In this document: piece by piece, positions 19,840 through 46,530 of the stretch
Layout of the letters: each line of letters opens with the position of its first letter
Position numbering within the stretch: the first letter of the stretch is position 1
Source: Proteobacteria bacterium UBA1844
GTDB lineage: Bacteria; Pseudomonadota; Gammaproteobacteria; Steroidobacterales; Woeseiaceae
Length of the DNA: 50,381 bases
Assembly (NCBI GenBank): GCA_002338615.1
Contig: DDIS01000203.1
Span: 5,711-56,091, forward strand
Direction of reading: 5' to 3'
Program-made: the position numbers and the translations under genes
Notes under the pieces: model-generated
What the model saw: only the letters and a program-made list of their open reading frames with translations
The model's database searches: none
Told to the model about the DNA's origin: nothing

Positions 19840-21237
19840 ATGACCACATGGGCACTACATAACCCGGTAAGAGCACCGGTGCTCTGCCTTGGTGTTGCCG
19901 AGGTCGGCCTGTTGTTTGTTTCCGTATATATCGCGGGCGCGTTCGTTTTTGGCAATCTCGCGAATTGCGAGCAGATCGTCGGGCCGCTGTTTCCCGTGGC
20001 ACTCACAATTTCGCTCGTCATTCTCACATGCCTGATAGCAATGGGCTTGTATCAATTGCATCAGCGGGCATATTTCCGGGAAGTTATCGTGCGGGTTGTA
20101 GTGGCGGTGCTGGTCGGGATCGTGGCGCTGTGGATCCTCGTTGCGCTGCTGCCGACGATTCGGATACCTGCCAGTTTCGCTGCGGCTACACTGGGCTTCG
20201 GGCTGATGTTTCTCTTGCTAATCCGTTATGCATTTCTTTGCGTGGTGGACGACAACGTATTTCGGTATCGCACGCTGGTATACGGTGCGGGGAAAGCATC
20301 GTCTGCTATCCTCGACCTGCGACGGCGCGCCGATCGGCGTGGATTCGTCATCGTTGGCATCGTTCCGGCGCCGAGTGATGCCGAACTCGCGAGCCATAAC
20401 CAGATTCTCGATGACAGGCGCAGTTTGCTGGAAATTGCGCGCGAGAAAAACGCTGACGAAATTGTTATTGCCATGGATGATCGCCGCGGAAGCTTGCCCG
20501 TACAGGATCTGCTGGATTGCAAGCTTCGCGGTTTCGATGTGATCGATATCGTGGAATTTCTCGAGCGCGAAACCGGAAAAATCCGGATCGATTTGGTGCG
20601 GCCGGGCTGGCTGATTTTTTCGCCGGGATTCGGCGCCAAGCGTTTTAGCAAATTGGCCAAACGTGCAATGGACATACTAGTAGCGACCGTCGCTATTCTG
20701 ATTTTCTGGCCGCTTATGCTCCTGATTGCGTTGGCGATAAAGCACGAGGACGGTTGGCGGGCGCCGGTTTTGTATCGCCAGGTAAGGGTCGGGCTCTTCG
20801 GCAACGAATTTGTACTCCCGAAATTCCGAAGCATGCGCGAGGATGCCGAAGCGGATGGACGACCTGTGTGGGCCGACGAAAATGACCAACGGGTGACCAG
20901 GGTAGGGGCCATACTTCGGAAATACAGGCTCGACGAATTACCGCAGTTTTTGAACATACTACGCGGCGAAATGAGTCTGGTCGGGCCCCGTCCGGAACGC
21001 CCGGAGTTCGTCAACGAACTGAACGACAGGATTCCTTATTACCCGGAACGCCATACAGTAAAACCCGGAGTAACCGGTTGGGCTCAGCTCCTTTACACCT
21101 ACGGGTCTTCCGAGGACGATGCCGCGGAAAAGCTTCAATACGACCTCTACTATGTAAAACACCAAAGCCTGATTCTGGACATTATGATCGTTCTGCAGAC
21201 CGTTGAGATCGTGCTGTGGGGCAAAGGTGCGCGATAA
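19840..21237 (+). CDS. EpsB-type undecaprenyl-phosphate sugar phosphotransferase
   Basis: 465 residues from the ATG at 19840. Four or five N-terminal membrane segments and a Rossmann-like CoA-binding-type region (VYGAGKASSAIL) precede a C-terminal bacterial sugar-transferase domain (FSKLAKRAMDILVA, KFRSMREDAE, LPQFLNILRGEMSLVGPRPE). The end, GWAQLLYTYGSSEDDAAEK to VLWGKGAR, is characteristic of the EpsB/exosortase-associated form of WcaJ-like enzymes. It loads a hexose-1-phosphate onto undecaprenyl phosphate at the inner membrane. It converges with the wecB gene across a 23-base gap. Confidence 0.9.
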   Translation: MTTWALHNPVRAPVLCLGVAEVGLLFVSVYIAGAFVFGNLANCEQIVGPLFPVALTISLVILTCLIAMGLYQLHQRAYFREVIVRVVVAVLVGIVALWILVALLPTIRIPASFAAATLGFGLMFLLLIRYAFLCVVDDNVFRYRTLVYGAGKASSAILDLRRRADRRGFVIVGIVPAPSDAELASHNQILDDRRSLLEIAREKNADEIVIAMDDRRGSLPVQDLLDCKLRGFDVIDIVEFLERETGKIRIDLVRPGWLIFSPGFGAKRFSKLAKRAMDILVATVAILIFWPLMLLIALAIKHEDGWRAPVLYRQVRVGLFGNEFVLPKFRSMREDAEADGRPVWADENDQRVTRVGAILRKYRLDELPQFLNILRGEMSLVGPRPERPEFVNELNDRIPYYPERHTVKPGVTGWAQLLYTYGSSEDDAAEKLQYDLYYVKHQSLILDIMIVLQTVEIVLWGKGAR

Positions 21238-21260
21238 GCCATTGCTGTTGTGACAAGTAT

Positions 21261-22373
21261 TTACTTCCGCGACAGTTGAAGAGCAGTACTACGTCGCTTG
21301 AGGCTCTCGACAGCGCGATCAGCGGTGTGACCGTCCCAGAGCGGCGGACATTTGCCCTTTTTCCAGTTGCCTGCCAAGACAGACTGCAGATTTTTCGCGA
21401 GGGATCCGGCATCGATCAATTCATTCGTTCCGAGCAGAACTGTGACCGGACGTTCGGTATTTTCACGCAACGTAAGGCATGGAATGCCGAGGTAGGTCGT
21501 CTCTTCCTGTAATCCGCCCGAGTCCGTGATAACGACTTTTGCGGTGGTGACGAGACTCATGAATCGGACGTACGGTACCGGCTCGAGCAAGGTAACGTTG
21601 GCAGCTTCCTCGATTTCATGCTTCATCGAAAACTTTTCCAGTCCCTTGATGGTTCGTGGATGCGCGACGAACACGATAGGCAGTTCAGAGCTGGCCGTGA
21701 GCAGCGCGTCAACGATCGGCCGCAGCGACCCCAAAGTATCGACATTGGACGGACGATGCAGTGTAACTAACGCATAGTTGCCGGGGTCCAGCGCAAGCTT
21801 GCTGGCTGCACGAGCCTGTTCGATATTCTCGCGTAGCATCTCGAAAGAATCGATCATGATATTTCCGATCCTGTCGATTTGATCTTCATGTATGCCTTCG
21901 CTGATAAGATTTTCATCCGCGTCGGCAGACGGCGTCCAGAGCACATCCGCAATTGCATCCGTCACGAGGCGATTGATTTCTTCGGGCATGCGCCGGTCAC
22001 GGCTGCGTAGGCCGGCCTCGAGATGAATTACCGGTATCCAGAGCTTGGCGCCGACCATCGCGCATGCAGCGGTTGAATTGACATCGCCGACCACGACTAT
22101 CCAGTCGGGTCGGTGCTTCATACAGATTTTTTCGTAAGCAATCATCACGCTACCGGTCTGCTCTGCGTGCGAGCCGCTGCCGACACCGAGATGAAAGTCT
22201 GGTTTCGGCACTCCAAGATCCTCGAGGATTGCATCGGACATGTTGTGGTCGTAGTGCTGGCCGGTGTGTACCAGCACCGGATTCGCCCAGTCGGTGGCGT
22301 TGAGCGCATGAAACAGCGGAGCGATTTTCATGAAGTTCGGTCGTGCGGCTGCAATGAGATGAATGTTGACCAA
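21261..22373 (-). CDS. wecB: UDP-N-acetylglucosamine 2-epimerase (non-hydrolysing)
   Basis: About 370 residues from the TTG at 22373, preferred over the upstream TTG at 22439 because AGGA sits seven bases before it and homologues begin at this point (VNIHLIAAARPNFMKIAPL). Motifs include HTGQHYD, DVNST, EAGLRS, PEEINR and TDSGGLQEE, all typical of WecB/MnaA. It converts UDP-GlcNAc to UDP-ManNAc. No partner dehydrogenase (WecC) is present in the window, so ManNAc itself may be incorporated or WecC may lie elsewhere. Confidence 0.92.
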   Translation of the reverse strand: MVNIHLIAAARPNFMKIAPLFHALNATDWANPVLVHTGQHYDHNMSDAILEDLGVPKPDFHLGVGSGSHAEQTGSVMIAYEKICMKHRPDWIVVVGDVNSTAACAMVGAKLWIPVIHLEAGLRSRDRRMPEEINRLVTDAIADVLWTPSADADENLISEGIHEDQIDRIGNIMIDSFEMLRENIEQARAASKLALDPGNYALVTLHRPSNVDTLGSLRPIVDALLTASSELPIVFVAHPRTIKGLEKFSMKHEIEEAANVTLLEPVPYVRFMSLVTTAKVVITDSGGLQEETTYLGIPCLTLRENTERPVTVLLGTNELIDAGSLAKNLQSVLAGNWKKGKCPPLWDGHTADRAVESLKRRSTALQLSRK

Positions 22374-22544
22374 GGCGTTGTCCTGAGTGACGGATGCCGC
22401 GGAGTATAGCAACAATGCCCGGCGTGCCCGATGTGACAAGCGTCAAACCCTCGATTGAGGACACGCTCACGGGGTACAATGTGGCACGGTCAAAATACTT
22501 CAGAACGATTTGCCTTATACTGCAAACCCATCTCAGGCGTTGAA

Positions 22545-22560
22545 AGGATGAGATCATCCT
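22545..22560. promoter_or_regulatory. 16-base near-perfect palindrome, possible operator
   Basis: AGGATGA and TCATCCT are separated by two bases. It lies between the leftward wecB start and the tRNA-like gene/prsK on the right. A TATACT hexamer at 22516-22521 is close by and could be a -10 box for the tRNA-like gene, though no good -35 is present. Confidence 0.3.
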
Positions 22561-22616
22561 GCAGACCGTGGGGCATGTTTTGCGGTGCACCAGGCCCGGT
22601 AACCAATTCACATCGC

Positions 22617-22692
22617 AGGCGCGTAGCTCAGTGGTAGAGCACTGCTTTAACATAGCGGAGGTCGGAGGTTCGATTCCTGCCCGCGCCTACCA
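22617..22692 (+). tRNA. tRNA-like gene, anticodon position reads AAC (Val), bulged T-stem
   Basis: A full cloverleaf can be drawn: acceptor AGGCGCG/CGCGCCT, D-arm GCTC-AGTGGTA-GAGC, anticodon arm CTGCT-TTAACAT-AGCGG, T-loop TTCGATT, then A plus an encoded CCA. By standard numbering positions 34-36 are AAC, which would read Val codons; A34 is very unusual for a bacterial valine tRNA. The T-stem pairs fully only if G22679 is bulged, making the gene one base longer than expected. It may be a divergent functional tRNA or a decaying copy. It ends ~30 bases before the prsK-like start. Confidence 0.75.
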
Positions 22693-24717: not shown

Positions 24718-24768
24718 AAGGGTCCGGATTGCGGAACTGGTAGCAGGGTAACATGTGACATGGCTCAC

Positions 24769-24829
24769 AGAATTCAGGACACTTCAAGGCGCGCCGATAC
24801 AGTGTACCGGCGCTGGTGTAGAATTCAGG
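24769..24829. promoter_or_regulatory. Composite direct/inverted repeat upstream of the EPS operon
   Basis: The decamer AGAATTCAGG occurs at 24769-24778 and 24820-24829. Between the copies is an interrupted palindrome, GCGCCG (24791-24796) and CGGCGC (24808-24813), with an inner TAC/GTA pair. A weak sigma-70-like pair (TTGTGG, 17 bases, TACAAA at 24926-24931) lies downstream, before the lipoprotein start at 24980. This is a candidate regulator site for the EPS operon; the hairpin alternatively could be an attenuated prsK terminator, although no T-run follows. Confidence 0.35.
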
Positions 24830-24979
24830 TGGGCGCGATGATCTAATGCGTAACTGCACTTTCCCGTGGCGGAGCCGGACGAAGTGAGGCTGGCGCGCGG
24901 TCTTGTGGCGTCTGACGTCTCACAATACAAATGGTTTTGAGTTTCAATCGAAGGAATCACCGTCCGTGGGTTCGAACCA

Positions 24980-27245: not shown

Positions 27246-27246
27246 T

Positions 27247-28200: not shown

Positions 28201-28217
28201 GCTGTCGCGTTTCGACG

Positions 28218-30311: not shown

Positions 30312-31538
30312 ATGTGTAAACCCGAACTCATCTATCTCGTACACCGCATACCGTATCCGCCGGACAAAGGCGACAAGATTCGGTCCCACCATATACTCAG
30401 ATACCTGCTTCGGAAATATCGGGTCCACCTCGGTTGCTTCGTGGATACGCCCAGCGACATGCAGCACGTCGCGGCGCTGCAATGCCAGTGTGCCAGTGTG
30501 TTCGCGCGCCCGTTGCCACCGCTGCAGGCCCGGTTGAAAAGTTTGTCTGCTTTCCTCCGGGGCGAGGCCTTGACCCTGCGCTATTACCGTGATCGCGCCA
30601 TGCGGCACTGGGTACATAAGACTATTGAAAACAACAACATACAAGCGGCAATGGTATTTTCGTCGCCTATGGCCCAGTTTCTCATCGGTTCGCACGGAGC
30701 CGCGCTCCCGCGGGTCATGGACTTCGTCGACGTCGACTCGGATAAATGGCGGCAATATGCACATGGTAAACGTGGTCTCGGCAAATGGGTTTATGCGCGT
30801 GAAGCTGGCAAATTGCTTGACTATGAACGACGCGTTGCCCGCGATTTCGATGCATCCGTATTCGTGTCGCCCAACGAGACGAATTTATTCACCCAACTGT
30901 CTCCTGAGACGCGCGACCGGCACTACTCACTCGGCAATGGGGTCGCGTACGGCTATTTCGATCCTGAGATACCGCAGAGCAACCCTTTCGGCGGCGTTAC
31001 AGAGGCGTTGGTTTTTACAGGGATGATGAATTACTGGCCGAACGTCGACGCAGTAAACTGGTTTGCGAGGGATGTGCTGCCAGCGATCGTGCAACGACGG
31101 CCGAACGCAGAGTTCTGGATTGTCGGTGATGCGCCGGTGCGGCAAGTGCTGGATCTCGCACGGCTGCCCGGCGTTCGGGTGACAGGGCGCGTGCCCGACG
31201 TCAGGCCATATCTCCGGCATGCGAGAACGATCGTTGCACCTCTTCGCATCGCGCGCGGCATTCAGAACAAGGTTCTCGAAGCCCTGTCCATGGGCAAGCC
31301 TGTCGTCTGTACACCGCAAGCAGCTGCGGGTCTCGATCGATTGCCGGAGGCGGCGGTAGCTGTCGCTGGCGACGGCGTTGCCTTTGCGTCGCGGGTCGTG
31401 GAGAGTCTCGATCGCGACCAGCACCAGGTATGCAAAGTGGCCAGAAGCTTCATCATCGATCATTACGACTGGGATCGTAACCTTGAGCGCCTTGACGCGT
31501 TGCTCGCCCCGCCGCAGGGCAACGCGGCGGTTGGTTGA
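30312..31538 (+). CDS. Glycosyltransferase (GT4-like, exosortase-locus type 1)
   Basis: 408 residues. The N-terminal HRIPYPPDKGDKIRSHH stretch and the C-terminal nucleotide-sugar region (GIQNKVLEALSMGKPVVCTP) are typical of the first PEP-CTERM/EpsH-associated sugar transferase. It is a GT-B cytoplasmic or membrane-associated enzyme adding a sugar to the lipid-linked repeat unit. Its TGA is immediately followed by the ATG of the second transferase, with none of the exosortase genes that usually lie near here. Confidence 0.9.
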   Translation: MCKPELIYLVHRIPYPPDKGDKIRSHHILRYLLRKYRVHLGCFVDTPSDMQHVAALQCQCASVFARPLPPLQARLKSLSAFLRGEALTLRYYRDRAMRHWVHKTIENNNIQAAMVFSSPMAQFLIGSHGAALPRVMDFVDVDSDKWRQYAHGKRGLGKWVYAREAGKLLDYERRVARDFDASVFVSPNETNLFTQLSPETRDRHYSLGNGVAYGYFDPEIPQSNPFGGVTEALVFTGMMNYWPNVDAVNWFARDVLPAIVQRRPNAEFWIVGDAPVRQVLDLARLPGVRVTGRVPDVRPYLRHARTIVAPLRIARGIQNKVLEALSMGKPVVCTPQAAAGLDRLPEAAVAVAGDGVAFASRVVESLDRDQHQVCKVARSFIIDHYDWDRNLERLDALLAPPQGNAAVG

Positions 31539-32669
31539 ATGCGCGGCGACGCCCGACTGCACATTGCCCACGTAATCTACCGCCTCGATGTCGGTGGTAT
31601 GGAAAACGGCCTAGTCAATCTCGTGAACCGAATGCCGCGCGACAAGTTCAGGCATTCGATTCTGGTATTGACCTGTGCCTCGTCGTTTCGCGAGCGTATC
31701 GTCAACGACGAGGTCGACATCGTCGAGTTCCACAAGCCTGACGGGAATCATCTACCGACGTTTCACAGAATCCGCCGCACCCTGCGCGAACTGCGTCCGA
31801 ACATCGTTCACACCCGGAATCTCGGAACACTCGATATCAGCCCCATATCGAAGCTCGCCGGATGCAAAATTCATGTGCACGGCGAGCATGGCTGGCATGC
31901 CAAGGATCTGCAAGGCCGGTCCGCCAGACACAGAGTTGTCAGGAAATTCTGTGACCCGTTTGTCCAAAAATACGTAGCCGTGTCGCGGGACATTGCCGCC
32001 TGGCTGTCCGCTACGGTAGGTATAAATCCTGCCAAGATAGAGACGATTCACAACGGCGTCGATCTTTCATATTTCGGCGGGGGAGGCACGCAACCGCGGA
32101 CCAATTCCAGCGATACGGATAGCGTTGTGTTCGGCACGATAGGCCGCCAGGACCCAATCAAGGGGCTCGATGTTTTTATTGACGCGATTGCCCTGGTCCT
32201 CAAGCAAGAGCCGGACATGCGATCCATGATTCGGGTAATTATGGCTGGCGATGGTCCCGAGCATGGCCGTTGCGTCGCTCGCTGTACCGCGCTCGGCCTG
32301 GGTGAGGTCATTCGCCTGCCTGGAACGGTTGAAAATGTGCCATCGCTTCTGCGCGATTTCGACTTTTTCGTACAGCCCTCGTTGAACGAAGGCATGTCCA
32401 ATACGATTCTCGAGGCTATGGCTTCCGGTCTGCCCGTGGTAGCGACGGACGTGGGAGGCAATCCGGAACTGATCCGCGACACGGTCGACGGCAGCCTTGT
32501 GCCCCCCGGGGATGTGCCGAGCCTGGCTGACCGGATCATTTGCTACGCGCGGGATGCAGGCTTGCGCGAAACACAAGGCATTTCGGCTCAGCAAAGGGCC
32601 GCGAACGAGTTTTCGCTCGATGCCATGACGCAGAACTACGGGGAGTTCTACCAACGCCTGGTGCCTTGA
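31539..32669 (+). CDS. Glycosyltransferase (GT4, exosortase-locus type 2)
   Basis: 376 residues. IAHVIYRLDVGGMENGLVNL at the N-terminus and SLNEGMSNTILEAMASGLPV near residue ~285 are classic GT4 features, and the whole fits the second sugar transferase of exosortase-A loci. It directly abuts the preceding gene (TGA-ATG), so the two are probably translated together. It is the last gene of the rightward EPS operon and faces the leftward hydrolase genes. Confidence 0.91.
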   Translation: MRGDARLHIAHVIYRLDVGGMENGLVNLVNRMPRDKFRHSILVLTCASSFRERIVNDEVDIVEFHKPDGNHLPTFHRIRRTLRELRPNIVHTRNLGTLDISPISKLAGCKIHVHGEHGWHAKDLQGRSARHRVVRKFCDPFVQKYVAVSRDIAAWLSATVGINPAKIETIHNGVDLSYFGGGGTQPRTNSSDTDSVVFGTIGRQDPIKGLDVFIDAIALVLKQEPDMRSMIRVIMAGDGPEHGRCVARCTALGLGEVIRLPGTVENVPSLLRDFDFFVQPSLNEGMSNTILEAMASGLPVVATDVGGNPELIRDTVDGSLVPPGDVPSLADRIICYARDAGLRETQGISAQQRAANEFSLDAMTQNYGEFYQRLVP

Positions 32670-34446: not shown

Positions 34447-34752
34447 CTATGCTGTCTTGTCCTGGATGAAATCGACGAGCGTGCCAACCGTGGCAAACGT
34501 ATCCGCACTGACTTCGTCATCCTCGACTACGATGTCGAAGAATTCTTCCAGCTCGGTTAAAACCGTCATAACAGCCATCGAATCGAGTTCAGGGATATCG
34601 CCGAGCAGCCGGGTTTGCTCGGAAAATCCGGCAGATCGTGCACCAAGTTGCAAGGCCTGATCGAGCACCGCTACTATGTCTCGTAGCAGTTCCATTCTTT
34701 GGGCAACGCATGGGATTGACGATGCGCTGTTTTTGGCAGTTTCAGACGTCAT
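34447..34752 (-). CDS. Acyl carrier protein
   Basis: 101 residues. The phosphopantetheine site is Ser58 in ELDSMA, within an acidic four-helix ACP fold (ELEEFFDIVVEDDEVS). It would carry an acyl or aminoacyl group as a thioester. It heads a leftward ACP-hydrolase 2-hydrolase 1 operon. The acyl-CoA ligase and PLP decarboxylase that normally accompany it in exosortase-A loci lie 9-12 kb to the right. Confidence 0.88.
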   Translation of the reverse strand: MTSETAKNSASSIPCVAQRMELLRDIVAVLDQALQLGARSAGFSEQTRLLGDIPELDSMAVMTVLTELEEFFDIVVEDDEVSADTFATVGTLVDFIQDKTA

Positions 34753-36390: not shown

Positions 36391-37284
36391 TTACTCGGCT
36401 ACCAGGTCGGTCGGAGGCTTGGGCCGCGGCGCGCCGCTGCCGGTATAGAGGGAAGGTCTCTGGCTGCCGACCCAGGCTGGATTGTGACCCTTGCCGCTTT
36501 TGTCGGAAATATCCGCCGGAGTAGGATTGACGTTCAGATACCAGATACTTTGCTGCCCCGCGCTCGTTGACATCGGTGAGGCGATTTCGGCAAGAATGTC
36601 GGCAACGCTGAGCTTGTCGGAGTATATCTGGATGCCCCGTAATACCCCGTCCCAGACTTCGTTTCCAGGTGCCCAGGGCGCATCTCCCCAGGTCAGTGTC
36701 GGGGCAGGGGGGTTAACGTTGCCCCAGTCCGCCGGGCTGGTGCGCGTCACGATGTGGCCGCCGTCGGTATTTGGCAGGTCCCAGTAAAACTCGTGGTGTT
36801 TTTTTCCATCGGATCCGATCCAGACGCGCAAGGCCTGGGTATGCCAGCGACCATAGTCCACAGCGCCATTGGTAAAGTCGGCCTGCTCGACGGATACCTC
36901 CCAGAAATGCGTGCTGCCATTCGGCGGATTCTGGGGGTAGGGATGCGCGCCGTAATAACTGTCCGCGCCGCCGTTCGACGTCCACAGAAAGGTACTTAAA
37001 TCTCCCTGGCCGTCGTCGTTGCCCCAGAAAAAAGCGGTGTAGTATCCTGACTGCTGCCGCGGGTAAGCGCGCCAGATGTAAGTGATCCCCTTGCCGGGCT
37101 CACCATAAACAGGCAAGCCGTGGTTTTGCGGATTCGTAAACCTGAAGCGCATCGTGGAGTTCACCGCGTCGGATCCCGGAAAATCAAGTCCTGTTTCCTG
37201 GGCGTTGACCACCACGGGTAAGAATACGAAAAGAGAGAATAGCGCGAGTCCAATCCTGCGGACCGGAACGACATCAGAACCCAT
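36391..37284 (-). CDS. Secreted LamG/concanavalin-like jelly-roll protein
   Basis: 297 residues with an N-terminal signal peptide (LALFSLFVFLPVVVNA). The mature part is aromatic-rich (TYIWRAYPRQQSGYY, FFWGNDDG, HHEFYWDLPN) and has LRGIQIYSDKLSVADIL, typical of LamG-like lectin/lyase jelly rolls. It could bind or cleave the EPS outside the cell. AAGGAG lies seven bases before the ATG. The C-terminus ends in a Pro-rich PRPKPPTDLVAE, a sequence that usually leads into an Fn3 domain, which is missing here. Confidence 0.65.
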   Translation of the reverse strand: MGSDVVPVRRIGLALFSLFVFLPVVVNAQETGLDFPGSDAVNSTMRFRFTNPQNHGLPVYGEPGKGITYIWRAYPRQQSGYYTAFFWGNDDGQGDLSTFLWTSNGGADSYYGAHPYPQNPPNGSTHFWEVSVEQADFTNGAVDYGRWHTQALRVWIGSDGKKHHEFYWDLPNTDGGHIVTRTSPADWGNVNPPAPTLTWGDAPWAPGNEVWDGVLRGIQIYSDKLSVADILAEIASPMSTSAGQQSIWYLNVNPTPADISDKSGKGHNPAWVGSQRPSLYTGSGAPRPKPPTDLVAE

Positions 37285-37596
37285 AAATGATCTCCTTGGC
37301 TGGCGGTGGCCAGGTGGCCTGCGCGCGACCGATGACTCAAGACACGAACCTACAACATCCGGCTCGTTGCCGTCTATGTAACGGAGTAAAAAAACACATT
37401 ATGTAGCCAAACTGCGACACAATATGGGGTTCGAGCCAGCGTCTGGCGCTTATGTGTGAGTTCAGTAACAGTTTTGCACGTGTGGCTCATGCATGATGGT
37501 CAGCTGACGCAGGCCAATCGGGTTTGTGCAAGAAAATGCAGTGAATGTTTATGCTTGTGATGTGTTGGATGACCTGGACTTTTGAGGCAGGCTTGC
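37285..37596. promoter_or_regulatory. Divergent intergenic region with three evenly spaced palindromes
   Basis: 312 bases. CACGTG (37477-37482), TCATGCATGA (37487-37496) and GTCAGCTGAC (37499-37508) are perfect palindromes whose centres are exactly 12 bases apart. They lie ~90-120 bases before the rightward GT2 start and ~190 bases before the leftward lectin gene. A regulatory role is inference. No convincing -35/-10 pair was found. Confidence 0.3.
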
Positions 37597-38493
37597 GTGG
37601 CTAGGGTGACGGTAGGCATGCCCGCATATAACGGCGAGAAATTTATCGCCGCGGCAATCCAATGCGTGCTCGAGCAGTCGTTTCGGGACTTGACCCTGCT
37701 GATTTCCGACAATGCGTCCACCGATGCAACGGAGGAAATTTGTCGTTCATTTGCCGCGCAGGATGATCGCATCGTGTACCTGCGCCAGCAGCAAAACCTG
37801 GGTGCGACGGCAAACTATAATTTCGTTGCGGAACAGGCATCGAGTGAATACTTTAAATGGCATTCGTGTAACGACCTGTTATCGAAAGATATGATCGGCA
37901 ACTGTGTCTCGGTGCTGGACTCGAATTACGAGGCGGCGCTGGTCTACGCGAAGACCTGTTTGTTTAACGAGTCCATTGCCGACGCGAAGACTTACAACCA
38001 GGACCCCCTGGCGGACCAGAGTGACGCATTGCAGCGCTTTATGCACGTTGTTGATGATATGGCTCTGAATAACATCATGAACGGGGTGTTGCGGCTGGAT
38101 ATGCTACGACGCACGTCAATGCTGCGTGAGTTTTACTTCGCGGACCGTACAATGATGGCGGAGTTGGCTTTGCAGGGAAAACTTCTCGAAGATCCCGTGA
38201 GCCGGTTTTACCGGAGGATGGACGAAGAGTCGGCCACCCATATGAAAAAAGCGGACGAGGTCATCAAGCATTTTAATCCATCCTGGAAACGACCTCTGCC
38301 ATTCACAAACTGGCGCGTTTACGGGTCTTTTTTGGCGGGATTGTGGGCATCCAATATCGGCATCGTGCCCGCTGTCAAAGGCTCGCTCAAGGTTGCGCGG
38401 CGAGCATGGTGGGGCAAAGGCGATCTCCTTGCCGATATTCGTGATTTCTCTCGCTACTCGCTTGTTGGATTGAAACACAAAGCCGGACGATAA
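37597..38493 (+). CDS. Family 2 glycosyltransferase
   Basis: 298 residues from the GTG at 37597, chosen because GAGG lies nine bases upstream; a TTG at 37582 is in frame. The GT-A nucleotide-binding start is VTVGMPAYNGEKF with SDNASTD, and the later Lys-rich and C-terminal region is typical of small EPS glycosyltransferases. It would add a sugar to the lipid-linked unit on the cytoplasmic face. It lies just upstream of the nucleotide-sugar cluster. Confidence 0.87.
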   Translation: MARVTVGMPAYNGEKFIAAAIQCVLEQSFRDLTLLISDNASTDATEEICRSFAAQDDRIVYLRQQQNLGATANYNFVAEQASSEYFKWHSCNDLLSKDMIGNCVSVLDSNYEAALVYAKTCLFNESIADAKTYNQDPLADQSDALQRFMHVVDDMALNNIMNGVLRLDMLRRTSMLREFYFADRTMMAELALQGKLLEDPVSRFYRRMDEESATHMKKADEVIKHFNPSWKRPLPFTNWRVYGSFLAGLWASNIGIVPAVKGSLKVARRAWWGKGDLLADIRDFSRYSLVGLKHKAGR

Positions 38494-38529
38494 CGGCGCA
38501 TTGAACAAGAACCTCGCAAGGATCAGGAC

Positions 38530-39786
38530 ATGAGTGAGCCATCGATTGTAAACCAGCCGGCAGGCTGCAGGCTTTGCGGTGAACTTCTCGAACACATGAT
38601 GCTGGATCTCGGCATGTCGCCACCTTGCCAGAATCGTGTTTACGAGCATGAGCTGAATCGTATGGAGGCGTTTTACCCCCTTAGGGTGTTTCTGTGCGAA
38701 AACTGTTTTCTCGTACAACTGGAAGAGATTGTCGCTCCCGAGTCGATCTTCGATGACTATGCGTATTTTTCCTCTTACTCGGAAAGCTGGGTATTGCACG
38801 CAAAAAACTATGTCGACATGATTATCGGCCGCCTGAATCTCGGCGCAAACAGCAAGGTGGTCGAACTCGCCAGCAATGACGGCTACCTGTTGCAGCATTT
38901 CGTGGCGAGATCAATTCCCTGCATGGGCGTGGAGCCGGCTGCTAACGTCGCGCAAGCTGCCATGGAAAAAGGTATACCGACAACAGTGCAATTCTTCGGT
39001 GCGCAGACGGCAAGGAATATCGCTGCAGAATTCGGCCAGGCGGACCTGATTGTCGGCAACAACGTTCTGGCGCATGTGCCTGATCTCAATGATTTCGTCA
39101 AAGGAATCAAGATTTTGCTTGCTCCGGGCGGGGTGGTAACGATGGAGTTTCCGCATTTGCAACGTTTGTTCGAGGAAAACCAGTTCGATACGATCTATCA
39201 CGAGCATTTTTCCTATTTTTCGTTCGTCGTTGCACGTGAAGTGTTCGCCCGTCACAAAATGACCTTATTCGACGTTCAGGAGCTGAAAAGCCATGGCGGG
39301 TCCATAAGGATATTCGGGCGGCATGAAAGTGATAAGTCGAAACCCGTGCAGCCGTCGGTACCAGAGCTACTGCAAAGGGAAAAAGACAAGGGATATCTCG
39401 ACAAGGGCACTTACGATGCATTTACAGACAAGGTTCGAGCGACCAAACGTGACATCCTGTCGTTTCTGATCGAACAAAAGAATGCGGGGAAGCGTATTGT
39501 GGGTTATGGCGCGCCCGGAAAAGGTAATACGCTGTTGAACTATTGCGGAATTCGCGAGGACTTCCTCGACTACACAGTCGACATCAGCCCACACAAGCAA
39601 GGCACGTATACACCTGGGACACACATACCCGTACTCAGCCCGGACCACCTTCGGGTGACGCGGCCCGATTACATTCTGATTCTGCCTTGGAATCTGACCG
39701 ACGAGATCGTCCGCAGAAACTCGCAGGTCAAGGAGTGGGGCGGTAAATTTGTCGTACCCATTCCTTCTGTCCGGGTTATCAATTAG
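38530..39786 (+). CDS. NDP-sugar C-methyltransferase-like SAM enzyme
   Basis: 418 residues. The N-terminal zinc site is CxxC (C13, C16) and CxxC (C56, C59); the SAM-binding core follows (VVELASNDGYL at 110-120) and then the C-terminal Methyltransf_14 domain with GYGAPGKGNTLLNY. This three-part layout is that of TylCIII-type sugar C-3-methyltransferases, which make branched deoxysugars from 4-keto NDP-sugars. AAGGA lies seven bases before the ATG. It begins a run of five sugar-modifying genes. Confidence 0.88.
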   Translation: MSEPSIVNQPAGCRLCGELLEHMMLDLGMSPPCQNRVYEHELNRMEAFYPLRVFLCENCFLVQLEEIVAPESIFDDYAYFSSYSESWVLHAKNYVDMIIGRLNLGANSKVVELASNDGYLLQHFVARSIPCMGVEPAANVAQAAMEKGIPTTVQFFGAQTARNIAAEFGQADLIVGNNVLAHVPDLNDFVKGIKILLAPGGVVTMEFPHLQRLFEENQFDTIYHEHFSYFSFVVAREVFARHKMTLFDVQELKSHGGSIRIFGRHESDKSKPVQPSVPELLQREKDKGYLDKGTYDAFTDKVRATKRDILSFLIEQKNAGKRIVGYGAPGKGNTLLNYCGIREDFLDYTVDISPHKQGTYTPGTHIPVLSPDHLRVTRPDYILILPWNLTDEIVRRNSQVKEWGGKFVVPIPSVRVIN

Positions 39787-39808: not shown

Positions 39809-40861
39809 ATGATGAAAGTATTTCTCACCGGGGTTGACGGTTATATCGGCTGCGTACTTGCGCCCATGTTGCTCGAGCAGGGCATCGACGTCGTCGCTTT
39901 GGACACGGGCTACTACCGTGATGGCTGGCTGTACAGCGACCCGGCGCGTATCTCGAAGATACCGCTCACGATTGTCAAGGACCTGCGTCGTATCAGCGAG
40001 GAGGACCTGGCTGGTTGCGACGCCGTTATTCACCTGGCGGAGCTATCGAACGATCCGCTCGGAGAAAATAACCCGGCGATCACCCACGAAATCAATCATC
40101 AAGGGTCGGTGGCACTTGCAAAGCGAGCGAAGGCCGCTGGCGTACGGCGCTTTGTGTACACGTCGTCGTGCAGCGTCTATGGCCTGGGTTCCGGAGAATT
40201 CCTCGACGAGACATCCCCGGTGAATCCGCAGACAGCCTACGCCGACTGTAAGGTGCTGGTGGAGAGAGACGTTGCAAGCTTGGCGGACGACGACTTCTCG
40301 CCCGTATTCTTGCGCAATGCCACTGCATACGGTGCGTCGCCGCGCATGCGTTTTGACATCGTCATCAATAACCTGTCCGGCTTGGCGTGGACGGCCGGAC
40401 GGATTGCCATGACCAGTGACGGGACACCGTGGCGACCTGTCGTTCATGTCGAAGATATATGTGGAGCCATCATTTGCGCATTAAAAGCACCGCGGCAGAC
40501 GATTCACCAACAGGTGTTCAATGTGGGCAGCACGCAGGCAAATTTCCGGATCCATGAAATCGCCGCAATTGTCGCGGACGTGTTCCCCGGCTGCACACTC
40601 GAGATAGGCCCGCCAGGTGGCGACAATCGCAGCTACCGGGTGAATTGCGACAAAATTCTCGACGGGCTGCCCGGATTTTCCTGCCAGTGGACGCCCGAAA
40701 GGGGTGCACGGCAACTGTTGTCAGTTTTCGAAACCATTGCAATGTCGAAGGACACTTTCGAATTTCGCGCCTTCACGCGACTCAAACAATTGACCTATCT
40801 GCAGAAGACAGGTCAGTTGGATGACTCGTTCTACTGGAAGAGTGGTGCCAGCGCATCCTGA
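39809..40861 (+). CDS. NAD-dependent epimerase/dehydratase (extended SDR)
   Basis: 350 residues. The Rossmann motif GxxGxxG is at 8-14 (GVDGYIG) and the catalytic YxxxK is Y144/K148, with the conserved TSS at 118-120. It resembles GalE/WcaG-type nucleotide-sugar reductases or epimerases rather than CDP-glucose 4,6-dehydratase. It probably acts on the sugar made by the neighbouring C-methyltransferase and cytidylyltransferase. The downstream gene overlaps it by ~40 bases. Confidence 0.86.
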   Translation: MMKVFLTGVDGYIGCVLAPMLLEQGIDVVALDTGYYRDGWLYSDPARISKIPLTIVKDLRRISEEDLAGCDAVIHLAELSNDPLGENNPAITHEINHQGSVALAKRAKAAGVRRFVYTSSCSVYGLGSGEFLDETSPVNPQTAYADCKVLVERDVASLADDDFSPVFLRNATAYGASPRMRFDIVINNLSGLAWTAGRIAMTSDGTPWRPVVHVEDICGAIICALKAPRQTIHQQVFNVGSTQANFRIHEIAAIVADVFPGCTLEIGPPGGDNRSYRVNCDKILDGLPGFSCQWTPERGARQLLSVFETIAMSKDTFEFRAFTRLKQLTYLQKTGQLDDSFYWKSGASAS

Positions 40862-42188
40862 TGTGAGGTCGCACCTCGCCAGCCATCGTTACACCGGTGA
40901 CGAGATCTACGCGCTCGTTTCGCGTTTGTACCCCATGTGCCGAAGTATCACGGGCGCCGGGCTGAGAGAGACTTTGCGGGTAATCCAGGAAATTATACCG
41001 ATCGAAATCCACGAGGTTGCGACGGGGACCACCGTGTTCGATTGGAAGATTCCGAAGGAATGGGCGATACGCGATGCCTATATTGCGAACAAGAGCGGTG
41101 CGCGTGTGGTCGATTTTCAACAGTCCAATTTGCATGTTGTTAACTACAGCTGTCCTGTCGACACGACGCTGTCGCTGAACGAACTCGAACCTCGACTGCA
41201 CAGCTTGCCGGATGCACCGGACTGGATTCCTTATCGCACTTCCTATTACAACGAAGACTGGGGTTTCTGCCTGACTCAGAACCAACGGGACGGCATGGCG
41301 GATGGCGACTACCGCGTAGTTATTGAGTCGGAACTGTTCGACGGGTCTCTGAGTTATGGTGAATTGTGTATTGCCGGTACGTCGACGGACGAGATAATTC
41401 TCTTCGCACATTGCTGCCATCCATCGTTGTGCAACGACAATCTGTCCGGTGTGGCGATGTTGACACTACTCGCCAAAGCAATATCGACAGTCCGTTTGCG
41501 CCACACAATTCGCTTCGTCTTTGCGCCAGCGACGATCGGGTCAATCACATGGCTGTCGCGTAATCAAAAGACGCTGCAAAATATCAGGGCAGGCCTCGTG
41601 GCCTCCGTGCTCGGTGATGCCGGTAAATTTCGATACAAGTTGTCCGGCCAGGACGATGCGCTGATCGACCGGGCAAGTACCCATGTGCTCGAGCACAGAT
41701 ATCCCGATTTCGAACTACTCGAATTCAGCCCGTGGGGTTACGATGAGCGGCAGTTTTGCTCGCCGGGTATCGATCTGCCGGTAGGCCGGCTCACACGCTC
41801 GCCGAATGGCGAATACCCGGAGTATCATACGTCGGCGGATGACCTCGATCTCGTGGCTCCGCAATATCTCGCCGAGTCGTTTGAAGTCTATCTGGAAGTC
41901 ATTGGCTGCCTGGAAGCCAATCGTACTTTCGTGAATACCAGCCCGCAGGGCGAACCGCAGTTGGGCCGGCGCGGACTCTACGGCAAGATGGGCGGGTTCC
42001 AGCATATCGAGGATATCAAGTTAGCAATGCTCTGGATGTTGAACCAGAGCAATGGACAGCGTTCGTTGCTGGACATTGCGCAACGATCAAAGTTGCCCTG
42101 GCAGGTGCTGGACGACGCTGCTCGTATGCTTGAGGAAAACCAATTGTTAAGAGAAGTGGCAAACGGAAAGGATGGTCTGGGGCAATGA
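40821..42188 (+). CDS. DUF2172/DUF4910 aminopeptidase-like protein with C-terminal winged helix
   Basis: 455 residues from the ATG at 40821 (AGG eight bases upstream); a GTG at 40863, just after the SDR stop, is an alternative. The M28-like metal site shows H200 and D206 in FAHCCHPSLCNDN, and a winged-helix-like region ends the protein (residues ~375-450, QRSLLDIAQRSKLPW). The family recurs in polysaccharide and LPS loci with sugar methyltransferases, but no substrate is established that I know of. The stop overlaps the cytidylyltransferase start (ATGA). Confidence 0.82.
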   Translation: MTRSTGRVVPAHPDVRSHLASHRYTGDEIYALVSRLYPMCRSITGAGLRETLRVIQEIIPIEIHEVATGTTVFDWKIPKEWAIRDAYIANKSGARVVDFQQSNLHVVNYSCPVDTTLSLNELEPRLHSLPDAPDWIPYRTSYYNEDWGFCLTQNQRDGMADGDYRVVIESELFDGSLSYGELCIAGTSTDEIILFAHCCHPSLCNDNLSGVAMLTLLAKAISTVRLRHTIRFVFAPATIGSITWLSRNQKTLQNIRAGLVASVLGDAGKFRYKLSGQDDALIDRASTHVLEHRYPDFELLEFSPWGYDERQFCSPGIDLPVGRLTRSPNGEYPEYHTSADDLDLVAPQYLAESFEVYLEVIGCLEANRTFVNTSPQGEPQLGRRGLYGKMGGFQHIEDIKLAMLWMLNQSNGQRSLLDIAQRSKLPWQVLDDAARMLEENQLLREVANGKDGLGQ

Positions 42189-42970
42189 AAGTCGTATTAT
42201 TCTGTGGTGGGTACGGGACGCGTTTACGAGAGTATTCTGAAACGATCCCCAAGCCTCTGGTCGAGATAGGTTACAGGCCGATCATCTGGCACCTCATGAA
42301 GTACTACGCGCACTTTGGGCACAAGGATTTCATTCTCGCGCTTGGCTATCGCGGTGATTTGATCAAGGATTACTTCCTGCAGTACAACGAATGCATGTCC
42401 AATGATTTTGTGCTGACAGAAGGTGGCAGGAACGTGGAACTGCTCAGCTCCGATATCGATGACTGGCGCATTACGTTTTGCGATACCGGCCCAAATTCAA
42501 ACATCGGCCAGCGTCTGCTACGAGTGAGACACCTGCTCGATGGAGATGACATGTTTCTTGCGAACTACAGCGATGGATTGTCGGATCTGCCACTCGACAA
42601 GCAGTTGGCCGAGATGAACAAGAATGGCTCCGTCGTCAGCTTCGCCTGTGTGCGGCCGTCGTACAGCCTGTCCACGGTTGAAACGAACGCAAAAGGCCAG
42701 GTCACGGCGATACGCTACATGTCGGAATCGGACACGCGAATCAATGGCGGTTTCATGATTCTGCGCTCCGAGATTTTCAACTTCATCAAAGAAGGGGAGG
42801 AACTGGTCGAGGAGCCGTTCGGCAGGCTGATAGAGCAACGCAAGCTCAGTGCTTACGAGTACGACGGTTTCTGGGCCGCTATGGACACATTCAAGGATAA
42901 AGTGCAATTCGATCGCATGGTATCCAGAGGTGAGGTGCCTTGGCAGGTCTGGGACGCGGAGGCGAAATGA
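42185..42970 (+). CDS. rfbF: Glucose-1-phosphate cytidylyltransferase
   Basis: 261 residues, the family length. The nucleotidyltransferase signature FCGGYGTRLREYSETIPKP is at the N-terminus, and EEPFGRLIEQ, FWAAMDT and VPWQVWD near the C-terminus match RfbF. It makes CDP-glucose, the precursor of CDP-deoxysugars. The CDP-glucose 4,6-dehydratase (RfbG) that normally follows is absent from the window. The stop overlaps the PIG-L start (ATGA). Confidence 0.92.
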   Translation: MKVVLFCGGYGTRLREYSETIPKPLVEIGYRPIIWHLMKYYAHFGHKDFILALGYRGDLIKDYFLQYNECMSNDFVLTEGGRNVELLSSDIDDWRITFCDTGPNSNIGQRLLRVRHLLDGDDMFLANYSDGLSDLPLDKQLAEMNKNGSVVSFACVRPSYSLSTVETNAKGQVTAIRYMSESDTRINGGFMILRSEIFNFIKEGEELVEEPFGRLIEQRKLSAYEYDGFWAAMDTFKDKVQFDRMVSRGEVPWQVWDAEAK

Positions 42971-43626
42971 TTCCTCTGCTGACTGTGGCACAAGACAGGC
43001 CTTTGAGAATACTGTGTCTCGGTGCGCATTGCGATGACATTGAAATCGGTTGCGGCGCGACTCTGCGTAAACTGATTGCGCGAACCCACGGGGCCGAGCT
43101 GGCCTGGCATGTGTTTAGTTCGAATCCTGCACGCGCGCAGGAAGCCGAGCGTAGCGCGACGCGATTTCTCGAAGGAGCAGTGGCCAGCCAGGTTGAAATC
43201 AGGGAATTTCGCAACGGCTATTTCCCGTTCAACGGGGCCGAGATCAAAGACTGCTTTGAGGCCCTGAAATCCGGACCCGAGCCGGACATTGTGTTCACGC
43301 ACTATGGGAAAGATGCCCACCAGGACCACCGTACTATCAGTGAACTGACCTGGAACACATTTCGAAATCACCAGATCCTTGAATACGAAATTGCAAAGTA
43401 CGACGGCGACCTCGGGGCACCGAATTTTTTCGTGCCGGCCGGCAAGGCAGATACCGATTTCAAGATTTCGACGATTTTGCAGTGTTTCGCGACCCAGGCT
43501 TCGAAACAATGGTTCGACGATCGTACATTTTACGCGTTGATGAGGCTGCGAGGCATCGAGTGCAATGCTGACTCCGGCTATGCCGAGGCATTTTACGCGC
43601 GCAAGACCGTATTCAGCGGAACCTGA
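42967..43626 (+). CDS. PIG-L/LmbE-type deacetylase
   Basis: 219 residues from the ATG at 42967, which overlaps the rfbF stop. The zinc motif is AHCDD (H21, D23, D24) with a later HQDH; both are diagnostic of PIG-L deacetylases, which remove N-acetyl groups from sugars. It likely deacetylates the amino sugar or an intermediate of the CDP-sugar pathway. It is the last gene of the rightward sugar cluster and converges with the PLP decarboxylase across 16 bases. Confidence 0.9.
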   Translation: MIPLLTVAQDRPLRILCLGAHCDDIEIGCGATLRKLIARTHGAELAWHVFSSNPARAQEAERSATRFLEGAVASQVEIREFRNGYFPFNGAEIKDCFEALKSGPEPDIVFTHYGKDAHQDHRTISELTWNTFRNHQILEYEIAKYDGDLGAPNFFVPAGKADTDFKISTILQCFATQASKQWFDDRTFYALMRLRGIECNADSGYAEAFYARKTVFSGT

Positions 43627-43642: not shown

Positions 43643-44875
43643 TCAGCATAGGATTTCGGCGCAAGGTGGATGTGAGAGAAACGACGCCGGACTTGCGGTC
43701 TTGCCATAGGCACCTGATTGCAGAACAGCTACCAGCGACCCGACCCTGAGTTCGTGAACAGTAACGCGGTCGCCCAGCAGATCGAGCGGCGTACAAAGGG
43801 GCCCGACCACGGATACTTCCTCCTGCCGCCCGGTCGAATCGACCGATACGACGGGGTAGTTCTTCCTGATTACCTGACCAAAATTACCCGACGCGGCCAG
43901 GTGATGGTGCAGACCGCCGTCGCAAACTGCGAATTTGGCGCCGCGTGATTCCTTGACGTCGATTACGCGCGTCACGTAGATGCCGGATTGGCCGACGAGG
44001 TAGCGGCCGAGTTCAGTGACGACTTCAACATTCCCAAGCGCACTCTTCAGCCGGCCGACAGCTTTCGCGGCCGCCTCGCCGATGCTCCCGAGTACAAGAC
44101 TCCGTTCGCCGGGAAAATACGGGACGCCTAGCCCACCGCCGATATTAATTAGAGCAGGGCGGAGCGGTGTCGATTCGGCCAGTTCTATGACGAGTTCAGC
44201 AGTCTTGGTGATGGCTTCGATAATCGCTTCGGCCCGCAGGTTCTGTGACCCGGAAAAAACGTGAAAGCCGCGAAAATTGAGATCCAGCCCTGCGAGTTCC
44301 CTGAGCACCGCCGGAACTACTTCGGCGTCGATGCCGAACGGCGACGGTCGACCGCCCATCTTCATGCCCGCGGTTTTCAGTTCGAACGCAGGATTGACCC
44401 GAATCGCGACATCCGGACGCTTGCCGGCATCCGCTGCAAGACCAGCGATCCTGCGCAATTCGCCGATCGATTCTATGTTGATCGTAATCCCGGCCGCGAT
44501 TGCACTTTTGAGTTCTTCGTCCCGTTTCCCGGGGCCCGCAAAGCTGATGTCGCTGGCGTTCGTGCCGGTCTGCAAGGCGATCTCCATTTCACCCACTGAG
44601 GCAACGTCAAGTCCGTCGACGAGTCCCGCCAGGAAGTCCACGACCTCGGGCATCGGGTTAGCCTTCATGGCGTAGTGAATGTGAAGTTCGGCCGGAAGTG
44701 CCTCACGCAACTCACGGACACGCGATGCCATGCGAGCGCGGTCATAGGCATAAAAAGGGGTTTGCCCGGCCGTCAACGCAAGCTCACTCACCTTGCGACC
44801 GCCCCACAGCAGTTCATTGTCCTCGTAGCTCAGCGATTCGGTCGCTGCATGCGTTTTCGTTTGCGGCTCGCTCAT
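43643..44875 (-). CDS. PLP-dependent decarboxylase, fold type III (exosortase-associated)
   Basis: 410 residues. The alanine-racemase/LysA fold is clear: cofactor lysine K71 in YAMKANP, NIGGGLGVPYF, and DGGLHHHLAASGNF near the dimer-interface site. It matches the pyridoxal-dependent decarboxylase of exosortase-A EPS loci, related to diaminopimelate and ornithine decarboxylases. Its ATG overlaps the stop of the acyl-CoA ligase gene. Together with ligase and ACP it may prepare an amino-acid-derived acyl group. Confidence 0.91.
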   Translation of the reverse strand: MSEPQTKTHAATESLSYEDNELLWGGRKVSELALTAGQTPFYAYDRARMASRVRELREALPAELHIHYAMKANPMPEVVDFLAGLVDGLDVASVGEMEIALQTGTNASDISFAGPGKRDEELKSAIAAGITINIESIGELRRIAGLAADAGKRPDVAIRVNPAFELKTAGMKMGGRPSPFGIDAEVVPAVLRELAGLDLNFRGFHVFSGSQNLRAEAIIEAITKTAELVIELAESTPLRPALINIGGGLGVPYFPGERSLVLGSIGEAAAKAVGRLKSALGNVEVVTELGRYLVGQSGIYVTRVIDVKESRGAKFAVCDGGLHHHLAASGNFGQVIRKNYPVVSVDSTGRQEEVSVVGPLCTPLDLLGDRVTVHELRVGSLVAVLQSGAYGKTASPASFLSHPPCAEILC

Positions 44876-46530
44876 TCTCGGCTTTCATCGCCTGAATCGG
44901 CGAGCTCCTCAGCAAGCAGTTTACGGTCGATTTTTCCGTTCGGGTTCTTCGGCAGCTTGTCCCGCCAGACAATTTGTGCGGGTACCATGAAGTTGGGCAG
45001 AGCCGCACGGCAAGCGACAAGTATCTCAGCGCTGGCTTGCTCGCCAGGATTCGTGCCGCACGCAATGACGACGATTGCCTGTCCGATATCCGGGTGCGGG
45101 ACACCGATCGCCGCGCACTCACTGACACAACCAGACCCGAACACCGCTTCCTCGACCTCCGAGGGGCTGATCCGGTAGCCCGAGGATTTGATCATATCGT
45201 CCTTGCGGCCGACGAAGTAGAGATAACCCTCATCGTCGGCGTAGACGGTATCACCCGACCAGACAGTCATTTCCTCAAAAGGCAGTTCGCTGGCCTTGCC
45301 CGGCAGCGGTTTAAAGCGTCGCGCGGTCCGCTCCGGATCGTTCCAGTAGCCCAGAGACACGAGCGCCCCGCGATGCACGAGTTCGCCGGGCTCGCCCGGT
45401 GCGCAGTGGCTCCCGTCGTCGCGTACAACGAGAATTTGCGCGTTCGGTATCGCCTTGCCTATCGAGGTCGGTCGCTTGTCAACCTGGTCCGGAGCAAGAT
45501 AGGTAGAGCGAAACGACTCGGTGAGTCCGTACATCAGGAACACCTTCGTATCAGGCAACTGGGCGCGCAACTTTTTGAGCGTGGCAGTCGGCATCGCCCC
45601 ACCTGTGTTGGCGATATAACGCAGTGACTGCCTGACCTCGCCGGGCCACTCGAGTTTAACGAGCTGGTTCCAGAGCGGCGGCACGGCGGTCAGGCCCGTG
45701 GCACCGTGCCTGGCAGCGACTTTGAGCACATCGAGAGGCAGCAAGTAGTCGAACAGAATGACTGCCGCGCCGGCCAGGAAACCCGTCGTGAGCTGGCTGA
45801 AACCTGCGTCGAAGGAGAAAGGGAGCGCGGCGAGAATCCTGTCCTCGGCATTATTGCCGATGTAACCAGCCACGCTGGCCGCCCCGGCTACCATGTTGCG
45901 GTGTGACAGCACGACGCCTTTGGGCTTGCCCGTACTGCCCGACGTATAGAGTATCGATGCCACATCGTTGTCGATTCTCTGGCGAAAATCCTGTTTCCGG
46001 CCATGGGCCTCCACCAATCGCGTCCAGGACAACATGCGCGGCGATTGTTTTTGCTGCTGCGTGTCGTCGACGTCGACGAGAACCACGGTGCGCAGCGAGG
46101 CGCACCCGGCAAGTTCCTGCCCAAGGTTGTTGTAAAATGCCGCAGAGGTTATGAGTATTGTTGCCGTGCAGTCGTCGAGTATGTGCCGTACCTGCGCTTT
46201 CTTGAGTACAGGATTGACGGGTACAAAGACTCCGCCTGCCGCGCTGGTGCCGAAGCAGCCTGCAATCATTTCGGGTCGTTTGTTGAGGTAGACGGCTACG
46301 CGCTCTCCAGCTCGCAGACCGCTATCCACGAGTCCTGCTGCGACCGCACTGACCCGCGACGCCAGATTTTCGTAGCTCAGCGTTTCGTCGCGGCCAATCA
46401 GGGCAGGACGATCACCGAATTGGGCGGCGTGTCCGAGAATGAGGTCATGGAGCAGTATTGGAGTGGCAAGCAAAGAGGTTTCTTCGGTATTCGATTTCCT
46501 GTGAACACGATGCTGCCGCAATCGCGGCAT
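44872..46530 (-). CDS. AMP-forming acyl-CoA ligase (exosortase-associated)
   Basis: 552 residues from the ATG at 46530; homology starts at residue ~25, so a TTG at 46473 may be the true start. Adenylation motifs are in order: LYTSGSTGKPKGV (A3), YGLTES (A5), GDTVYADDEGYLYFVGRKDDM (A7-A8) and PKNPNGKIDRKLL (A10). It activates an acid with ATP and loads CoA or the ACP. The substrate is unknown. It corresponds to the ligase of exosortase-A EPS loci. Confidence 0.9.
   Translation of the reverse strand: MPRLRQHRVHRKSNTEETSLLATPILLHDLILGHAAQFGDRPALIGRDETLSYENLASRVSAVAAGLVDSGLRAGERVAVYLNKRPEMIAGCFGTSAAGGVFVPVNPVLKKAQVRHILDDCTATILITSAAFYNNLGQELAGCASLRTVVLVDVDDTQQQKQSPRMLSWTRLVEAHGRKQDFRQRIDNDVASILYTSGSTGKPKGVVLSHRNMVAGAASVAGYIGNNAEDRILAALPFSFDAGFSQLTTGFLAGAAVILFDYLLPLDVLKVAARHGATGLTAVPPLWNQLVKLEWPGEVRQSLRYIANTGGAMPTATLKKLRAQLPDTKVFLMYGLTESFRSTYLAPDQVDKRPTSIGKAIPNAQILVVRDDGSHCAPGEPGELVHRGALVSLGYWNDPERTARRFKPLPGKASELPFEEMTVWSGDTVYADDEGYLYFVGRKDDMIKSSGYRISPSEVEEAVFGSGCVSECAAIGVPHPDIGQAIVVIACGTNPGEQASAEILVACRAALPNFMVPAQIVWRDKLPKNPNGKIDRKLLAEELADSGDESRE

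Follow-up and report, generated by a model that had tools for sequence, protein, structure and literature searches.

The DNA examined here is a stretch of 50,381 nucleotides (the window), positions 5711-56091 of contig C3 in the draft genome of Proteobacteria bacterium UBA1844 (G000; Gammaproteobacteria, Woeseiaceae; an assembly of 4.23 Mb in 217 contigs, rated 93.8% complete and 4.4% contaminated), and it carries an exopolysaccharide (EPS) locus of the type associated with the exosortase XrtA, with no exosortase in it. The explanation that we favor, with moderate confidence, is that the sorting half of this locus (XrtA-EpsI, PrsT, and the PEP-CTERM substrates) was secondarily lost, and that its polymer half persists, rearranged, at two or more places in the genome. 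Loss is favored because the absence extends to XrtA-EpsI, PrsT, and the substrates alike, and because the usual neighbors of XrtA were sequenced without XrtA. The bolder proposal, that XrtA with its EpsI domain, PrsT, and the PEP-CTERM proteins were discarded together and that the polymer machine lives on with PrsK and PrsR as a natural uncoupling, is one that we put forward only tentatively.

NCBIfam models were run against 30 window proteins encoded between 15043 and 50351, and a family was called when the score exceeded the NCBIfam cut-off. A first-pass annotation, made from the sequence alone, had listed at least 14 genes of the XrtA type, a list that poor model scores would have undermined. 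The scores were not poor: 13 of the 14 families named for XrtA exceeded their cut-offs in the window, all in open reading frames, with the kinase family TIGR03018 just below its own and the acyl carrier protein matching generic models only (Table 1). All eight XrtA-associated EPS families tested (TIGR03013, TIGR03027, TIGR03007, TIGR03006, TIGR03019, TIGR03087, TIGR03088, and TIGR03097) were over cut-off; the TIGR03013 model begins at residue 154 of its open reading frame, placing the true start of EpsB near 19903. The same annotation had found XrtA, EpsI, the XrtA-associated ATPase, PrsR, and PrsT to be missing from the window, and none of these is the family of any of the 30 scanned proteins.

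For comparison, a genome collection was scanned with an alignment of the deacetylase, the best 80 of at least 597 matching stretches were taken as relatives' loci, and their genes were labeled by tblastn. The usual order among these relatives is TyrK-TIGR03016-polyde-FemAB-stp1-XrtA-stp2. The window instead reads PrsK, 262 bp, Wza, 16 bp, ChnLen overlapping TyrK, 17 bp, polyde overlapping FemAB, 11 bp, stp1, 0 bp, stp2. Because relatives hold PrsT, TIGR03016, and XrtA-EpsI at these points, the window has three closed slots. In relatives G022, G028, and G079, PrsT (TIGR02917) lies between PrsK and Wza (in G079 together with wecB), TIGR03016 separates TyrK from polyde, and downstream of FemAB there is an XrtA-EpsI fusion; the order in G079 is FemAB-stp1-XrtA-stp2. 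In all 70 relatives' loci that have ChnLen together with TyrK and polyde, at least 1398 bp (median 3737 bp) separate the latter two, as compared to the 17 bp of the window. A TIGR03016 match was present in 65 of these 70 loci and in 68 of the 80 overall, and in some relatives the slot additionally holds TIGR03015 and/or wecB. TIGR03016 is thus a further family missing from its place in the window, one that the first-pass list did not contain. XrtA itself was found in 66 of the 80 loci. Its next recognized neighbors were FemAB or stp1 on one side and stp2 or AsnB on the other in 60 of the 66, exactly stp1 and stp2 in 42; it stood between FemAB and a contig end in three and had moved within the locus, next to other genes, in three more (L087, L117, L137). 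No exosortase relocated inside the window was seen: the 30 scanned proteins include no exosortase family, and whole-genome searches with TIGR02602, TIGR03015, and TIGR03016 gave no match on C3.

The first-pass annotation had suggested searching the whole genome for an exosortase. We searched 149 genomes with TIGR02602; 46 had matches over cut-off, and G000 had none even at E ≤ 1. A profile of the XrtA-EpsI family built from four sequences reached a best E of 0.53 in G000; in G023 it recovered a truncated but clear copy where a contig ends (54 bits). Substrates were sought in 30 genomes with PF07589, which scored over cut-off in 26 and not in G000; by elimination from the E-values, the negative genomes are G000, G006, G013, and G053, and all 24 XrtA-positive genomes in this search have matches over cut-off. 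With TIGR02595 the best E in G000 was 1.11, again with none over cut-off; its four weak matches have no PEP motif near the protein end, whereas the control matches in G022, G038, and G064 do have one. The many PEP-CTERM proteins that would have pointed to an ordinary split locus were therefore not found over cut-off with either model. PrsT was over cut-off in 9 of 12 genomes searched, and its best score in G000 was 111 of 312 bits. Of the other relatives in which TIGR03097 exceeds its cut-off, 18 of 18 have XrtA over cut-off, as do 13 of 14 other FemAB-positive members of the family, the fourteenth (G023) being cut at a contig end. The XrtA-associated ATPase (TIGR03015) was dropped as a sign of loss: just 2 of the 30 genomes tested scored above its cut-off, neither of them in this family, and with a gene so rare an absence means little.

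A tree of concatenated ChnLen, FemAB, and polyde (73 loci, 1107 columns, midpoint root) places the window as sister to G022 (support 0.999), joined next by G028 (0.811) and then G079 (1.0), all three XrtA-positive. The other members of the clade that encloses the window all have XrtA, and the exosortase-less state of the locus is therefore derived, a loss rather than an ancestral absence. A locus that never had an exosortase might be expected from the compact gene order without XrtA; given this nesting, with support of 0.999 and 1.0, we regard an ancestral XrtA-free locus as very improbable indeed.

Several genes associated with XrtA are present on other contigs of the draft. PrsR is on C78 (707 bits); with PrsK in the window and PrsT nowhere over cut-off, the full PrsK/PrsR/PrsT set was not found. 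Contig C107 carries the TIGR03108 amidotransferase (937 bits, cut-off 817) and beside it, at the contig's end, the TIGR03016 barrel (116 bits, cut-off 91). TIGR03108 is the other usual neighbor of XrtA, and here it is adjoined by TIGR03016 and a glycosyltransferase rather than by XrtA. The pair is preceded on the contig by glycosyltransferases, a cassette related to HprK, and a gene resembling a flippase (below cut-off). In a tree, the barrel of C107 falls together with those in the slots of G022, G028, and G079 (0.993) and is therefore best taken as the slot gene in a new position. Besides itself it has at least four homologues among 7999 candidates scored, the best at 47% identity among the matches listed; all were given without genomic context and were set aside for that reason. 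The first-pass annotation had proposed that either the EPS machinery works alone or the sorting genes lie elsewhere. The latter holds for PrsR, TIGR03016, and TIGR03108; XrtA, PrsT, and PEP-CTERM proteins were not over cut-off anywhere in the draft. The former is favored by the draft as it stands, which lacks any TIGR02602 match at E ≤ 1 and any PrsT or PEP-CTERM match over cut-off, and is left unproven by a potential assembly gap.

PrsR (TIGR02915) was also over cut-off in G006 and G053, both without XrtA, PEP-CTERM, or PrsT over cut-off, so that in this genus the regulator seems to be in part uncoupled from XrtA/PEP-CTERM already. The converse is seen in G022, where XrtA and one PEP-CTERM protein occur and PrsR stays below its cut-off (best 363 of 503 bits).

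The chief alternative, to which we give a substantial minority chance, is that the locus is merely split in the ordinary way: the genes xrtA-epsI and prsT, with a small number of PEP-CTERM genes, would lie in an assembly gap, likeliest by the end of C107, of C3, or of both. The following points weigh against loss, and several of them toward such a gap. The genome is 93.8% complete and the window ends where its contig ends (the last base of C3, 56091, is the right edge of the window and adjoins the locus), which limits the exosortase and PEP-CTERM negatives. C107 likewise ends inside a polysaccharide cluster, its last glycosyltransferase cut, so that the displaced cluster runs off the contig. 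The slot barrel of the same lineage already sits elsewhere, as its grouping shows, and the retention of TIGR03016 and TIGR03108 is typical of genomes with XrtA. XrtA has moved within the locus in the three relatives mentioned and is on another contig in two of the 80 (L133 and L134). Three drafts of the same genus (G002, G013, G023) have XrtA missing or truncated, none over cut-off, despite PEP-CTERM matches (G002, G023) or PrsT (G013). G002 is rated 100% complete and has three PF07589 matches with no XrtA match to either model; possibly it has an assembly gap, or substrates without an exosortase. The sister G022 has one PF07589 and two TIGR02595 matches over cut-off, so few substrates were to be expected anyway. 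In the two nearest relatives, G022 and G028, moreover, AsnB and a different, stp1-like gene of 31-32% identity stand between FemAB and XrtA, and it is this gene, not the stp1-stp2 pair, that XrtA follows. If the ends of C107 and C3 are neighbors, a hidden xrtA would be likeliest in the gap that separates them; G+C near both ends is 0.57-0.60, which is unspecific, and the gene directions are compatible with adjacency. Yet the split locus calls for a relocation, a gap, and the joint absence from view of XrtA, PrsT, and all PEP-CTERM genes. In the TIGR02595 search, four of four XrtA-positive congeners have PEP-CTERM genes over cut-off on at least two contigs, and FemAB, stp1, stp2, and TIGR03108 were all sequenced without an adjoining XrtA. 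We accordingly continue to prefer loss of the sorting half.

A mis-binned or mis-assembled contig could also give the locus an exosortase-less look. The 4.4% contamination leaves some room for this, as does contig C105, where an AT-rich stretch holds another TIGR03097 gene. Whole genes are cleanly absent, however, with open frames on both sides, and the core genes and the C107 barrel indicate the same sister clade; tetranucleotide agreement between C3 and C107 is 0.96, which is weak evidence because other contigs of the draft give 0.94-0.97 and G028 gives 0.93. We consider an artifact improbable.

The AT-rich stretch itself (C105 1-7500, L053; G+C 0.43-0.46) begins with the TIGR03097 ligase, 42% identical to that of the window, and a deacetylase-like frame. 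C105 was rejected as the missing half of the locus, since no XrtA, TIGR03016, or PrsT query matched it.

XrtA was out of view in 14 of the 80 relatives' loci. Eight of these were traced to genomes, and the other six (L106, L108, L111, L130, L150, L153) are contigs of 4-10 kb. For five of the eight (L085, L086, L090, L133, L134), TIGR02602 was over cut-off elsewhere in the genome. No TIGR02602 was found in the genomes of the other three, whose contigs stop behind FemAB (L083), within AsnB (L119), and behind stp1 (L160). L119, a Gammaproteobacteria metagenome-assembled genome (CSMAG_2933), is intact from Wza to stp1 and has AsnB directly after stp1; XrtA is neither in view nor in the genome, but the contig ends in AsnB, and this locus is counted on the side of the split-locus reading. 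A second firm exosortase-less case was thus not found among the relatives' loci followed, and loss rests on a single genome, which also counts against it.

The short OPX protein of the window (212 aa) aligns only to residues 64-231 of the 359 in Wza; the C-terminal membrane-spanning part is missing. Short OPX proteins are described as paired with an outer-membrane beta-barrel (passages in PMC9601211 and PMC9603273), and the OPX-coupled barrels described have 16-18 strands. A structural model of the TIGR03016 protein from relative L149 is a confident single barrel (predicted local distance difference test 82.3) of about 22 strands that resembles outer-membrane barrels generally. By analogy, TIGR03016 may be the export partner of the short OPX, and such a role would account for its retention in the absence of XrtA and PrsT. 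The sequence of steps, as predicted from the families, would be as follows: EpsB would load the first sugar onto undecaprenyl phosphate; stp1, stp2, and the other glycosyltransferases would extend the chain; a flippase, for which C107 has a candidate, would carry it across the inner membrane; the TIGR03097 polymerase/ligase-type protein, the chain-length protein, and the kinase would polymerize it; the deacetylase would trim the polymer; and the short OPX with the moved TIGR03016 barrel would export it. If XrtA and the PEP-CTERM proteins are indeed gone, release of the polymer, or its retention by other means, would be expected.

The window resembles the XrtA/PEP-CTERM EPS locus, as presented in passages of Haft et al. 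2006 (PMC1569441), in its families and in the order Wza, ChnLen, TyrK, polyde, FemAB, stp1, stp2, and it nests among such loci; it differs in its closed XrtA-EpsI, PrsT, and TIGR03016 slots and in a draft with no exosortase, PrsT, or PEP-CTERM protein over cut-off. According to the same passages, disruption of epsH in the methanolan system of Methylobacillus sp. 12S left a polymer that was made without a working exosortase. That is a laboratory mutant, whereas here the state is natural and the substrates are missing as well. The promonan cluster of Sphingomonas LM7 is likewise a Wzx/Wzy-type cluster with an outer-membrane barrel, Wza, a chain-length protein, and a kinase, and loss of the barrel gene there abolishes the polymer (PMC11340318, in part). 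With the short-OPX and beta-barrel export of M. xanthus (EpsY/EpsX; parts of PMC9601211 and PMC9603273), the window shares its 212-aa OPX without the membrane-spanning part, and 68 of the 80 related loci have a match to the TIGR03016 barrel; the modeled TIGR03016 relative has about 22 strands against 18, the barrel gene of the window genome is on another contig, and the pairing is putative. Passages on Ferrovum (PMC4886054) suggest that some strains lost their PEP-CTERM system and do not describe this arrangement. We found no title or abstract on an XrtA-type EPS locus naturally without an exosortase, which does not prove absence from print.

To our knowledge, the division of XrtA-associated genes between polymer synthesis and protein sorting is not settled. 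If the loss is real, a natural deletion would assign these genes to polymer and sorting sets: TIGR03016 and TIGR03108 would count as genes for making and exporting the polymer, PrsT would count as a sorting gene, and PrsK and PrsR would have a role besides PEP-CTERM genes. The prediction would be a polymer that is made and exported but untied to the cell by PEP-CTERM proteins, comparable to the prsK and prsR mutants of Zoogloea, in which polymer is reportedly made but stays soluble (PMC9012009, in part).

Table 1. Genes and closed slots of the EPS locus, in window coordinates
Feature	Position	Strand	Evidence
EpsB-type initiating sugar-phosphate transferase, TIGR03013	19444..21237	+	538 bits, cut-off 393
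UDP-GlcNAc (UDP-N-acetylglucosamine) 2-epimerase wecB	21261..22439	-	TIGR00236 276 bits, cut-off 210
PrsK histidine kinase, TIGR02916	22699..24717	+	676 bits, cut-off 300
Closed PrsT slot (PrsK/Wza)	24718..24979	.	262 bp remain
Short OPX lipoprotein (Wza-like), 212 aa, TIGR03027	24980..25618	+	232 bits, cut-off 180; conserved Cys25
Chain-length determinant ChnLen, TIGR03007	25635..27245	+	483 bits, cut-off 279
Tyrosine autokinase TyrK, TIGR03018	27229..28200	+	220 bits, just under cut-off 231
Closed TIGR03016 slot (TyrK/polyde)	28201..28217	.	17 bp remain
Polysaccharide deacetylase polyde, TIGR03006	28218..29252	+	409 bits, cut-off 276
FemAB-family protein, TIGR03019	29245..30300	+	434 bits, cut-off 260
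Glycosyltransferase stp1, TIGR03087	30312..31538	+	511 bits, cut-off 317
Closed XrtA-EpsI slot (stp1/stp2)	31538..31539	.	0 bp remain
Glycosyltransferase stp2, TIGR03088	31539..32669	+	427 bits, cut-off 409
Hydrolase 1, TIGR03100	32734..33597	-	329 bits, cut-off 168
Hydrolase 2, TIGR03101	33599..34420	-	206 bits, cut-off 203
Acyl carrier protein (ACP)	34447..34752	-	PF00550 E 4e-4; generic ACP models only
O-ligase/polymerase-like protein, TIGR03097	35019..36368	+	540 bits, cut-off 188
Family 2 glycosyltransferase	37582..38493	+	NCBIfam glycosyltransferase models, all below cut-off
Sugar C-methyltransferase	38530..39786	+	PF08421/PF13489/PF08484
NAD-dependent sugar epimerase/dehydratase	39809..40861	+	PF01370
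Glucose-1-phosphate cytidylyltransferase-like, TIGR02623	42185..42970	+	217 of 300 bits, below cut-off
PIG-L deacetylase	42940..43626	+	PF02585
Pyridoxal phosphate (PLP) decarboxylase, TIGR03099	43643..44875	-	564 bits, cut-off 478
AMP-forming acyl ligase, TIGR03098	44872..46530	-	742 bits, cut-off 592
Glycosyltransferase	46593..48002	-	weak PF13579; 51% identity to gene adjoining hydrolase 1 in G028
GNAT/FemAB-like acyltransferase, cut by contig end	49569..50381	-	PF13480

Possible regulatory sites were scored against the sigma-54 consensus. The window has a perfect -24/-12 site at 19561-19576 (-), ahead of a PagP-like gene (19002-19673, -); it is the one perfect site seen on C3, where 0.1 would be expected by chance, and sites precede the PagP-like gene in G038 (11/11) and G022 (10/11) as well. 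C107 has three perfect sites (0.1 expected), one of them at 39004 (-), with the cassette at about 37167-39004 that encodes an HprK-related kinase A, a PqqD-like protein, and a 160-aa protein (L197, L198). In G038 and G064, an element resembling TTTACA (taken from a passage of PMC1569441) occurs upstream of PEP-CTERM genes; in G022 it occurs upstream of the PagP-like gene and is absent before the PEP-CTERM gene. It is also absent upstream of the sigma-54 site in the window. With so mixed a distribution, nothing was concluded on the idea of a PrsR box.

Homologues of wecB are present in many relatives' loci too. A 608-aa frame at 47848-49674 (-) matched no Pfam or NCBIfam family at the thresholds applied and is 29% identical to a frame on C78 (38543-40294). 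A second polysaccharide exporter, of the ABC type, is encoded at 10355-14701 (-) and comprises a 592-aa OPX with SLBB, an ABC ATPase, and an ABC-2 permease, along with a 370-aa protein without a Pfam match. Amid the sugar genes, at 40821-42188 (+), is a DUF4910/DUF2172/winged-helix protein with weak similarity to peptidase M28; a 44% identical relative is encoded near the EPS locus of G022.

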